This document shows positions 21,293-57,276 of a DNA stretch of 64,000 bases, piece after piece. The translations under genes were made by a program, and so were the position numbers. The notes below the pieces were generated by a model. It was not told the DNA's origin. It did not search any database and saw only the letters and a program-made list of their open reading frames with translations. Position 1 is the stretch's first letter. Each line of letters starts with the position of its first letter. Source of the stretch: Margaritispora aquatica (Eukaryota > Ascomycota > Leotiomycetes > Helotiales > Discinellaceae); NCBI GenBank assembly GCA_007644065.1, contig VJWN01000002.1, forward strand, positions 2,443,831-2,507,830. Direction: 5' to 3'.

Positions 21293-23118
21293 TTAGCGGA
21301 TAGTCATTTGCTTGACCATGTCAGCCTTTGCTGAAGAGCCTGCACTGCCAACTGCAGAGCTAGCACCAGCTTTCTTCTCGAAAACCTTCCAGAACTTCAA
21401 GCTCTCATCGGCAGCTGAAATGTGTTAGCTACGAACCAGCAAAGAATGACGCTAAACTTACCAGCTGTGGCCAACATTTGTCCATCTGGGCTGAGGCAAC
21501 TGTGGAGAACACGAGTCTCGTGGGCTGGAATCTCAACATTTCGGACCAAAGTTGGGTAGCTCCAGATGCTGATGGAGTTGTCGGGGAAACCGCTAGTGCT
21601 AACAATCTCGCGGTAGTGAGGGCTCCATCGGAGGGAGGTGACCTGAGAGCCAGTATCGATGCTGTTAACGCGAGCACCAGTGGTGGTATTCCAGAAGTGA
21701 ATGTGACGGTCGTATGATCCACCACCAGTGGCGAGGACATTGGGAGCCCATGGGCACCAGCTAAGAGCCTTGACAGCTGCCTTGTGGTTGGTCTTGGTGA
21801 ACTTAGGAACAGCCAAAGAACGAGCATCCCAGATTGAGACAAGGTTATCGTTACCACCAGTGGCCAATTGGGCACCATCAGCGCGCCATTCGAGACCACA
21901 AACTTCGGAAGTGTGGGAAACGAGCTCGGCAATCTTGTGTTGGGCAATGCGAACATCGTGGTTGTAAACAAGACCAGAGCGGGCACCGGTAGAGAGAGTA
22001 TGTTTGTTCCATCCCATGACACCAACGCGAGTATCGTGACCGTGCATGCTGCGGAGCTTAGTTCCCTCCTCGACATCCCAAATTTGGACTTCTCCCGTTC
22101 CGAGACCAACACTGACATAAGCTCCGTCACCAGACCACTTCACACTGCTGACATAGGTATCTGGGCTTGTCTCGAGCAGGGAGCTGACGGTTCCAGACTC
22201 AGCTGACCAGACATAGACGTTACGCTCAAGGCCAATGGCAACTTGGTTTCCTGAAGACCAATCGAGAAGGTTGAGGTAATAATCATCAACAAGGCCAGGG
22301 GCGTCAAGGACACGTTCCGGTGCAGTTGCAACACGACGTCTGAACTGAGCCGAGGCAGCATTGGAGTTCTTAAGAGGTCTGTTGTATTGTGAACGAAGGT
22401 CAACAGGCTTTGAAGACTCAGGTGGTGCTGGTTTGAAGGCAAGAATACGTTGGTTGAGAGAAACACCACACGCTGTGGCAAGTGAATCTTGATAAGCGAC
22501 AGTGTTTGGAGAAGGACGAGTGTAGGTAGATGGCTCATCGTCATCGTTCAGGGACAGAGATCCCAAAGCTGCGAGGGCATCATCTGCGGCAGAAGCAAGA
22601 ACTGAGGAGCTTTCGCCTCCATTGCTTGTCTTTGGTCGCTTCTCACCAATTTCAAGCTTTCCGGAACCGATTGTGGCAATTGCAGATGATGCAGTGCGAT
22701 TAGGAATGAATCTGTCGCCATATGATAAAGTTGTCTTGGTGGAATTTTGTCTGATGGATTTCTTGGACCGGTTGCTTTTAGGGGTCTTGCCGGTACCAGT
22801 AAGGGCAAAATCAGAAACACCAAGCTCAAGGGCACGACGAGGTGTAGAAACCCCCTTGGCAATGTTGGATTTTGGAGAATCGCGGTGGGTTTTTGAAGCT
22901 GATCTGAAATGCGAAGAAAGGTTTCCACCGTATGTTGAGGATCGAATGCCTTTAGTGTCGTAGCTCTTGCTCTCTGGTGTGAATGGAGAAGATGCGTTAT
23001 TGGTGTTACCAGCTTGTCGAGTACGAGGAGAAGGGGTCAAAGGCATGCGTCCGCCAGCGGTACGAGTGGAAAAGATTCCAGTATGGGACTTCAATGGGGT
23101 TGATATTGAGGTTGCCAT
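21293..23118 (-). CDS. cdc20: Cdc20-family WD40 activator of the anaphase-promoting complex
   Basis: A 592-residue protein from exons 21462-23118 and 21293-21414; the 47-bp intron joins LSPDGQMLATA to ADESLKFWKVF, completing the last WD40 blade. The C-box DRFIPNR (135-141) contacts the APC/C, the RILAFKP motif near residue 226 matches the KILR-like element, and the C-terminus ends MTIR, giving the IR tail. The WD40 propeller runs from LDAPGLVDDYYLNLLDWS (about 268) to the end. The N-terminus is rich in S/TP sites suitable for CDK control. Cdc20 recruits securin and cyclin B to the APC/C at the metaphase-anaphase transition and is the spindle checkpoint target. The RILAFKP element and C-box context favour Cdc20/Slp1 over Cdh1. 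Confidence 0.93.
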
Positions 23119-23898
23119 TTTTGAAATAGCAAGGTATGATCTCGGTCGAAAGACAAATCAATGTATCGATCGATAATGTCGAGTGAGCTCCAAGAGAGTC
23201 AAGCTAATGGTTCCTGGAAATTTTATGGTTAGTATGTTCGTATGTTGTACTCGATATGACGAAAGTAGCCTTCGAAGAATGGCTCTAAGTCGGAAGGCGA
23301 TCAATGGCGGGGTACTGTATGTGAGTACCAGCTGAAAGATCTAGTGGACTCGGATGTATTCTTTGGAAGCTTTGGAATGATGTACGCAAAAATGCAAAGA
23401 GTTTAGAGGGGTTGTAGGTAACAGAGGTGTGCGATATTGTAGAGTGCAGTGTGCATGAGAAGTTGAATAGGTTGGAGGTTGAAGTCTTGCTTTAAAGAAA
23501 ACAAAGAAATTAGCGTGGCGACTCTGGCACAGCAACCACATCACGTGTACATGGGTCTGAACCAGCACTACTGCAAGAAGCACCTCTGACCGGCACTAAT
23601 TTAAATTAGGTTTAGGTTCATATTTGGGAAAACTTAAGGTCATGCAAACGGCCCCAGCCTCCATCATACCAAGTACTGGAAGTTTCAAGATCACCGGAGT
23701 ACTGTACCACCACTATACCAGCATCAGCTCAGCAGAGAGCAAGCAATCTAGCAGCCTCACTTCACTGCATCCGTTCCCAAACTTCTGCTTAGGGCTCAAG
23801 TTTGATTGTGCCTCTACTTTTCTCTTTTCTCTCTCTGCAGCAAGCTTCTGCTGCTTTTTCTTTACTTTTTAGCATGCTAGTTTAGGAGAATCCTCAGA
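23119..23898. promoter_or_regulatory. Divergent promoter region, cdc20 / Kelch-BTB gene
   Basis: This 780-bp stretch separates two divergently transcribed genes and must contain both promoters. The right end, before the start at 23899, is pyrimidine-rich (TTTTCTCTTTTCTCTCTC around 23818), a usual feature of fungal leaders. No specific factor sites are identified. Confidence 0.45.
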
Positions 23899-43387: not shown

Positions 43388-43468
43388 CGACTCGGACGGG
43401 ACTCGAACCCGCAATCTCTAGCAATCATCAGATCGGAAGCTAAAGCCTTACCATTAGGCCACCAAGCC
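43388..43468 (-). tRNA. tRNA-Arg (anticodon CCG), with short intron
   Basis: An 81-nt cloverleaf on the minus strand. The acceptor stem GGCTTGG pairs with CCGAGTC, the D arm reads GGCC..TAATGGTAA..GGCT, and the T arm is GCGGG TTCGAGT CCCGT. The anticodon stem (TTAGC with GCTAG) encloses 16 nt instead of 7: the loop TTCCGA carries CCG, and about 9 nt (TCTGATGAT) form an intron after position 37. The D-arm GGCCTAATGG is typical of eukaryotic tRNA-Arg. Intron borders are approximate. The B box GGTTCGAGTCC is intact. Confidence 0.85.
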
Positions 43469-55525: not shown

Positions 55526-55609
55526 CTCTCCCACCAAGGCTTGAACTTGGAACCTCCCGATGTACTGCCGATAACAGTCGGACGCGCTAGCCAATTGCGC
55601 CATGGAAGA
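55526..55609 (-). tRNA. tRNA-Asn (anticodon GTT), with short intron
   Basis: An 84-nt cloverleaf on the minus strand. The acceptor stem TCTTCCA pairs with TGGGAGA, the D arm is GCGC..AATTGGCTA..GCGC, and the anticodon stem TCCGA pairs with TCGGG around the loop CTGTTA, with anticodon GTT. About 10 nt (TCGGCAGTAC) after position 37 form an intron. The T arm reads CCAAG TTCAAGC CTTGG. The GCGCAATTGGCTAGCGCG block is a strong match to eukaryotic tRNA-Asn. Intron borders are approximate. The discriminator base is G. Confidence 0.85.
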
Positions 55610-55941: not shown

Positions 55942-57276
55942 TCACAACCCATCTAACTCATCAAACACCTCCTGGAAAGACGGTCTATCCAACACCACGG
56001 GATTCGAACACTTCCAATGCAACACATTCAACCCCTCCACTACACTCGCATCCTTCTCACTCAGCAAATCATCGCCCTCGATCTTCCTCTCCACCAGGCC
56101 CAACAAGTCTTCCACCAAATGCCCGAAAGCAAAAACCTCCATCCTCTCCAGTCGCGGCGCAATCTCGTTGTCCTTGCCGTAGATGGTAGCCGCGCCAAAG
56201 TCACCAAGCAGCGCATGTCCCTTGTCGTCAATGAGGATGTTATGCGCATACAGATCGCCGTGAGCGATGCCCCGCTCGTGGAGATGAGTCGCCGCAGCTG
56301 CAATGCCAAGGAGGATAAGTTTGCACTTCTCGAGCGTGAACACTGCTTCAGGGTGGAATGCGTCACGGGTGCATGAGTCCAGCGTAGGCGGGAGTCCGAG
56401 ATTGGTGTAATGAGGAGGGATGAGCTCGAGCACGAGACCACGCTTCTCCGGATGGCCGTGGATTTTTCCAATGGGATCAATGAGGTTGGAGTGTTGACCT
56501 GCGGCGATGCAGGCGTTCATCTCATCGGCTGGGGAGCCATCGGATGTCACTTCGCCTTTGAACAGCTTGATCGCAACATGCTTCTCATCTGTTTCGGCTT
56601 TCCAGGTTCCTTTGGAAATGATGCCTGATGCACCTTCACCGAGAAGCTGGTGAACCGAGAGTTCGGTCCATGTGATGTCGCTTAGGATGGGATTGTCTGC
56701 GAATGTGGGTGTACATGGGTTTCCAGCGAAAGACAGGAATGAAAGCTCTGGCAAATCGAACAGCCAGTTGGGGAGAGTGTCGAGCTTGTTTGCTGACAAT
56801 CTCAAAAGCCCTAGTTTCCTACAATGGGACATCTCGTTTGGAAGAGAAGTAAGACGATTTCCAGCCAACATGCATTTCTGCAATCGGTGGCATTGTCCAA
56901 TACTCGTTGGCAACGAAGGAATCTCATTGTTGGTTAGAATCAACCATCGGAGCTTTCTTGGGAATGAGCCCTCAGGTATGGTTGACATCTTATTGCCCTT
57001 GAAAGCAATCATCTCGAGAGAACGACAATGTGCCAATTCCTTGGGGAATACTGTAAAGTTGCAGTCTGAGAAGAATGCCACTTTCAGCTTGTGGAGACGA
57101 CTGATGTCCTTGGGTAGAGATGAGAGAGGGTTTCCAGACAGGTCGAGGATCTCAAGGGTGGAGAATAGGTCTAGAATCTCGCGAGGAAAAGAGGTGAGGC
57201 CACATGAGAGCTTGACACGCTTGGCTCCTTTGTAGAGACCAGACTTGAGTCCCTCGAGGGTCTGAGGTGCTGACAT
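55942..57276 (-). CDS. Intronless LRR-protein kinase of bacterial type
   Basis: A 444-residue single-exon protein. Leucine-rich repeats occupy about residues 20-185, with seven or so units of about 23 residues (LEILDLSGNPLSSLPKDISR, LRWLILTNNEIPSLPTSIGQ and similar). A protein kinase domain follows: glycine loop LLGEGASGII (211-220), Lys237 in VAIKLF, helix-C Glu252, catalytic loop HGDLYAHNI (339-347, HRD changed to HGD) and GDFGAA (358-363). There is no membrane helix or signal peptide, so this is not a plant-type receptor kinase. The layout and the segments TSDGSP, LDSCTRD and HGDLYAHNIL match, as I recall, a bacterial family of LRR-containing kinases found in proteobacteria. No intron is present, unlike most neighbours. 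It is a candidate for transfer from bacteria. Substrates are unknown. Confidence 0.85.
   Translation of the reverse strand: MSAPQTLEGLKSGLYKGAKRVKLSCGLTSFPREILDLFSTLEILDLSGNPLSSLPKDISRLHKLKVAFFSDCNFTVFPKELAHCRSLEMIAFKGNKMSTIPEGSFPRKLRWLILTNNEIPSLPTSIGQCHRLQKCMLAGNRLTSLPNEMSHCRKLGLLRLSANKLDTLPNWLFDLPELSFLSFAGNPCTPTFADNPILSDITWTELSVHQLLGEGASGIISKGTWKAETDEKHVAIKLFKGEVTSDGSPADEMNACIAAGQHSNLIDPIGKIHGHPEKRGLVLELIPPHYTNLGLPPTLDSCTRDAFHPEAVFTLEKCKLILLGIAAAATHLHERGIAHGDLYAHNILIDDKGHALLGDFGAATIYGKDNEIAPRLERMEVFAFGHLVEDLLGLVERKIEGDDLLSEKDASVVEGLNVLHWKCSNPVVLDRPSFQEVFDELDGL

Follow-up and report, generated by a model that had tools for sequence, protein, structure and literature searches.

Leucine-rich repeats (LRRs) and a kinase domain are joined in one chain in the plant LRR receptor-like kinases, and this layout recurs in the fungal protein considered here. 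The XopAC/AvrAC effector combines LRRs with Fic. Among bacteria, a leucine-rich kinase family termed BLRK was reportedly recognized by Kannan et al. 2007 and placed in the ePK cluster, and bacterial members of the family treated below carry the annotation "leucine-rich repeat-containing protein kinase family protein". The text of that paper gives BLRK a single mention, as one of the families counting fewer than 100 members (PMC1821047). As for genes passing from prokaryotes to fungi, the accessible part of a 2024 survey covering 57 Leotiomycetes genomes stresses metabolic functions, reports signal-transduction enrichment in some groups, and mentions one unnamed serine/threonine kinase with a Ka/Ks above 1 (PMC11708051); the supplement to that survey may list the gene described here. 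No account of the fungal gene was found in the titles and abstract openings of the open-licence literature, and the case is apparently undescribed, though its general kind is known.

The gene lies at 55942-57276 on the minus strand of a 64,000-nucleotide stretch of the Margaritispora aquatica genome (the window; contig VJWN01000002.1, positions 2,443,831 to 2,507,830). Its minus-strand reading is one open frame of 444 codons followed by a stop, as the initial annotation had described for a single-exon gene of 444 residues, and the plus strand of the same interval holds 17 stops. In the searched genome (42.36 Mb, 49 contigs), 17 matches were found among the best-scoring candidates, of which this gene is the only full-length one and thus the single full-length instance of the one-protein LRR plus kinase layout, the remaining 16 being pieces of 40-158 residues. 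The host contig is at least 2.5 Mb long, and the gene is flanked by eukaryotic genes (Vta1, PDIA6-like, ABC transporter, SLX4, CDC20, and TFIIA alpha/beta). Its GC content is 0.515, compared with 0.463 for the window, and its GC3 is 0.58-0.59, with other window frames spanning 0.34-0.70; by these measures, base composition shows no foreign signature. SLX4 and the kinase gene had been put forward as the only intronless genes here. This does not hold, as CDC20/Fizzy (21400-23157, minus strand) is apparently intronless too, with its WD40 domain (profile positions 1-288 of 292) contained in one 586-codon stop-to-stop frame. Because CDC20/Fizzy also sits in one frame, intron absence is weak evidence in this window, and intronlessness was rejected as an argument for bacterial origin. 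Rfam gave no family at the gene. About 330 bases past its stop codon, ARAGORN placed a tRNA-like sequence (55526-55609, minus strand) that falls below the Rfam threshold and is possibly an intron-bearing tRNA. Another tRNA gene, at 43388-43468 on the minus strand, was found by both Rfam (52.6 bits) and ARAGORN.

The protein consists of LRRs leading straight into a kinase domain, as detected by Pfam (LRR_8, E 3.5e-15; PK_Tyr_Ser-Thr, 5.2e-16; Pkinase, 8.5e-16) and outlined in a predicted model with a pLDDT of 94.9 and a pTM of 0.91. The repeats occupy residues 16-189 (56710-57231, minus strand); they match LRR_8, LRR_14, and LRR_4 and, counted by eye with the strands and helices of the model, amount to seven and a cap, which agrees with the initial description of about seven LRRs fused directly to a kinase. 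They are of the SHOC-2/Leptospira type, with matches to Leptospira proteins, SHOC-2, and LRRD1. The kinase domain spans residues 199-444 (55945-56682, minus strand), delimited by Pfam, the predicted model, and VIA-align, which placed this half nearest to RIPK3, ACK1, TNNI3K, KIT, and RAF, that is, to the TKL/TK kinases. The VIA-align comparison covered the Foldseek top 1000 chains of a library in which eukaryotic kinases are abundant; the kinase half filled the list, leaving room for kinases only. From residue 373 on, the model contains only three helices (373-392, 407-423, and 434-443), which appear to correspond to F, H, and I, so that helix G is apparently lost. Kyte-Doolittle hydropathy, with a top 19-residue mean of 1.59 and a mean of -0.64 over the first 20 residues, suggests neither a signal peptide nor a membrane helix, again in line with the first reading of the sequence. 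ROC-COR domains, the mark of Roco/LRRK proteins, were not among the 13 Pfam families matched at E <= 1, and no NCBIfam model reached its cut-off. Identity with the XopAC/AvrAC effector was considered and rejected, as NCBIfam NF041381 scored 99.6 bits against a cut-off of 450, with its best stretch at residues 40-137.

Residue conservation was counted in an alignment of 81 rows (51 bacterial and 30 fungal), from which L035 was left out because its range held a stop; its open frame was used in the trees. The catalytic lysine, glutamate, HxD, asparagine, and DFG of ePKs are invariant throughout, except for the phenylalanine of DFG. Between the beta-3 lysine K237 and the alpha-C glutamate E252 lies a TSDG motif (residues 244-247; 56536-56547, minus strand) found in 81/81 rows, and the loop from the hinge to alpha-E carries CTRD (residues 302-305; 56362-56373, minus strand), in which C302, R304, and D305 are invariant and T303 is kept in 80/81. 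The catalytic loop reads HGDLYAHN (residues 339-346; 56239-56262, minus strand), with H339, D341, Y343, H345, and N346 in every row. DFG itself (residues 359-361; 56194-56202, minus strand; D359 and G361 in 81/81, F360 in 78) is followed by a very short activation segment: 19-23 residues separate D359 from E380, the acidic residue of alpha-F, in all 81 rows, and [AGS]PE strings occur within this stretch in five of them. The extended segment ending in APE, a feature of ePKs, is absent from the aligned rows. Near the C-terminus, C423 and R431 are invariant, as part of a C..RP.F motif that we take to be TK/TKL-like. At residue 382 (56131-56133, minus strand), which lies in the helix F region, the site of a W-[SA]-X-[G] motif in ePKs, arginine is present in 47 of 51 bacteria, and leucine, phenylalanine, or tyrosine in 28 of 30 fungi.

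The substitution of HGD for HRD noted in the initial annotation is real, yet it is normal for the family and no fungal oddity, since G340 is found in 30/30 fungi and 49/51 bacteria. Likewise, the bacterial segments LDSCTRD and HGDLYAHNIL cited there are borne out, as C302, R304, D305, H339, D341, and N346 occur in all 51 bacterial and all 30 fungal rows. LRRs followed by a kinase with TSDG, C-x-R-D, and H-x-D-x-Y-x-H-N thus define the family in all 81 rows, including the 51 bacterial ones. In the proteins of the fungal lists (P0001-P0130), the catalytic-loop and TSDG patterns were present in 130/130 and C[TS]RD in 129, the one without it being P0130, with 417 amino acids.

Relatives were sought in three protein searches, each giving the best 120 of 7,999 scored candidates. 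Pooled, these yielded at least 129 related clusters besides the query, the second and third searches adding eight and one among the matches listed, none of which carries an organism name. All matches listed fall in the fungal clade by similarity, and even the lowest of the best 120 rank far higher than the bacterial relatives do. Among the best 120 of the main search, 33 rows carry an organism name, namely 32 fungi and the liverwort Calypogeia fissa. Eight of these fungi were checked for class and all are Leotiomycetes: Venustampulla, Hyphodiscus, Amylocarpus, Chlorociboria, Hymenoscyphus, and Botrytis in Helotiales, Claussenomyces in Leotiales, and Scytalidium in Leotiomycetes incertae sedis; the other 24 presumably belong to the same class. 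Judged from the best 120 matches, the gene probably does not occur in fungi of other classes or in other eukaryotes. It is fixed in a fungal lineage, as had been suggested, yet M. aquatica is not its only carrier. A restriction of the best hits to fungi had been named in advance as grounds against a bacterial origin, and among the best 120 the hits are so restricted, one liverwort row apart; the matter is decided by the trees. The liverwort copy (P0110, on a 13.7-Mb contig) is 66% identical to the window's protein and groups with ten rows of the fungal lists (SH-aLRT 91). It may stem from a contaminating or symbiotic fungus or from onward transfer from fungus to plant. The fungal gene is easily overlooked, since its public labels mislead ("outer arm dynein light chain 1", "volume-regulated anion channel subunit LRRC8A", "L protein").

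Full-length bacterial relatives show 39-57% identity. At least 594 stretches were confirmed in a bacterial genome collection, of which 80 were kept, and in a plasmid collection 93 records matched, 15 of them over at least 80% of the query; among viral contigs, 30 pattern matches yielded no confirmed relative. Counting the centre genome, the gene was present in 49/398 sampled genomes of Pseudomonadota, 4/296 of Bacteroidota, and 2/194 of Cyanobacteria. Across 86 bacterial loci, several of them on short contigs, no neighbour was widely conserved and no operon clue emerged, the widest clusters being ABC ATPases (six families) and response regulators (five). A 3.2-kb record titled as a Bifidobacterium breve MAG (L015) holds a family member that falls among Bacteroidota and was probably mis-binned.

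Trees were built from the whole protein and from each half, leaving out L078, whose open frame covers residues 175-444 only, and L001, the window's own gene (identical to P0001). One tree dropped 38 of 108 loci (near-copies, repeats, the cut-off L049, and L011-L013). Proteins of the fungal lists, chosen for spread, were represented by 35 of the 130, by 17, or by eight (50-row and half-protein trees among them). In every tree holding bacteria, whether of the whole protein, the LRR half, or the kinase half, the fungal rows form one strongly supported clade. In the 50-row tree, the fungi share one side of a branch with support of 100/99 with 30 bacteria (Bacteroidota, Cyanobacteria, Mariprofundus-type, and others); on the other side are 12 mostly beta/gamma-proteobacterial rows, counting one alphaproteobacterium and two Bacteroidota (L046 and L062). 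Those 12 are likewise set apart in the LRR half (98/97) and the kinase half (100/99), and a beta/gamma-proteobacterial donor was rejected on these grounds. A second branch of the 50-row tree (96/91) unites the fungi with 19 bacteria, namely 17 Bacteroidota, the Leptospiraceae MAG L022, and L015, and the kinase-half tree recovers the same fungi plus Bacteroidota-rich group at 99/97. The proteobacteria singled out initially do share the domain order and segments, but the nearest relatives are mostly Bacteroidota, and the beta/gamma set lies across the 100/99 branch. The immediate sister of the fungi varies: three trees give L023, the 50-row tree L020 (85/79), the kinase half L034 (94/88), and the LRR half a group of Bacteroidota with weak support. 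Because of these shifts, the donor is named only as Bacteroidota-type, which we consider probable, although the rarity of the gene in Bacteroidota (4/296) relative to Pseudomonadota (49/398) fits this poorly. The LRR and kinase halves are placed alike at the broader scale, so the fusion was probably transferred as a single gene. Five columns are fixed on the fungal branch (N72C, W180F, G91A, I97M, and E156G), and these fit a single entry.

The direction of transfer is read from rooting by distant bacterial rows. An arrangement forcing the fungi to group with L012 and L013, two of these distant rows, was rejected in an AU test (p = 0.006) that superseded an earlier one (p 0.0005) that had bundled L098; the latter was rejected as an outgroup, being more distant than L012 and L013 and changing position between trees. 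With the fungi forming one clade nested inside bacterial diversity in the whole-protein and both half trees, the phylogenetic check proposed at the outset bears out the bacterial origin and fixation that had been suspected, and we consider the fungal gene very probably bacterial in origin. This confidence was lowered slightly because eukaryotes were visible among the best 120 matches only. The patchy bacterial spread (4/296, 2/194, and 49/398 genomes), like that of mobile genes, could also be expected if an ancestral fungal gene had spread to bacteria. Yet the sampled fungi are a single clade among several bacterial phyla, the named ones are of one class (8/32 looked up), and their union with L012 and L013 is rejected, which makes transfer in that direction highly improbable. 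An old eukaryotic LRR-kinase, inherited vertically and lost from the remaining fungi, would account for the fold of the kinase half, closest to that of eukaryotic TKL/TK kinases, and for repeats that match not only Leptospira proteins but also SHOC-2 and LRRD1. Such descent is hardly more credible, as the fungi lie within the bacteria and not outside them, and the sole named non-Leotiomycete among the best 120 matches of each search is the liverwort row. Bacterial contamination of the assembly, to which the lack of introns and the bacterial relatives might point, is practically negligible given a contig of at least 2.5 Mb with eukaryotic genes on both sides and closest named relatives, among the best 120 matches, in many separately sequenced Leotiomycetes.

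Under the favoured bacterial origin, a cytosolic LRR-kinase gene would have passed in a single event, still an intact fusion, to an ancestor of the Leotiomycetes and would have been kept since with its active site unchanged, selection being judged by protein conservation. As the main catalytic residues are invariant in 81/81 rows, the enzyme is likely to be an active phosphotransferase, and a dead enzyme is unlikely; origin and activity taken together are held with good confidence. A substrate protein or a regulator may dock on the LRR solenoid, and whatever the LRRs present would be phosphorylated by the kinase. With its shortened activation segment and apparently missing helix G, the protein would have neither the usual peptide grip nor a loop-phosphorylation switch, so its substrate would have to be recognized by other means, most obviously by the LRR face; TSDG and CTRD, both conserved across the family, may mark a pocket for substrate or regulator. 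The chances of an LRR-docked protein substrate are about even. An enzyme of the same origin might instead, as APH, choline, and Kdo kinases do, phosphorylate a lipid or a small molecule, with the LRRs only regulating it. The short activation segment, the lack of a visible helix G, the HGDLYAHN loop without the lysine usual in Ser/Thr kinases, and a weak Pfam Kdo match (PF06293; 24.2 bits against a gathering score of 21.3, best stretch residues 320-356) all point this way. Still, the best fold matches are protein kinases, although eukaryotic kinases abound in the library compared, and the TK/TKL-like C..RP.F motif is kept with C423 and R431 invariant; a small-molecule substrate is therefore possible but doubtful. 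It could further be speculated, though this is rather unlikely, that a eukaryotic TKL/TK kinase passed to bacteria, where it shed the activation segment and helix G, before returning to the Leotiomycetes as a one-protein cytosolic sensor, with ligand binding by the LRRs coupled to phosphorylation, and perhaps moving on to Calypogeia fissa.

Gained once and then retained across no fewer than two orders (Helotiales and Leotiales) of a single class, a regulatory kinase would show that a foreign signalling enzyme can be worth keeping, and the fungi offer a eukaryotic host for learning the role of a bacterial kinase family. That bacterial family may be BLRK, judging by the name. Members of the bacterial family are close counterparts of the fungal protein: Paraburkholderia largidicola BEI72309.1 and Vitreoscilla filiformis WP_089418300.1 are 50% and 40% identical over the whole protein, respectively, and share domain order, length, TSDG, C[TS]RD, and HGD, the five columns fixed on the fungal branch setting it apart from the bacterial leucine-rich repeat-containing kinases. 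The DFG aspartate of PKA is D184. Counted from there to the alpha-F acidic residue, given as D220 in the accessible text of PMC1821047, PKA has 36 residues, against 19-23 in the LRR-kinase family. The same text gives [LI]KPx as the catalytic-loop motif of Ser/Thr kinases (PMC1821047), whereas DLYAHN has a tyrosine in place of the lysine. The TKL/TK kinases RIPK3, TNNI3K, ACK1, and KIT likewise differ from the LRR-kinase in its stretch of 19-23 residues from DFG to alpha-F and, as predicted by the model, in the apparent lack of helix G. Finally, while plant LRR receptor-like kinases share the single-chain layout, the fungal protein differs from them in having, as judged by hydropathy, no signal peptide or membrane helix, and in its short LRR region and truncated activation segment.
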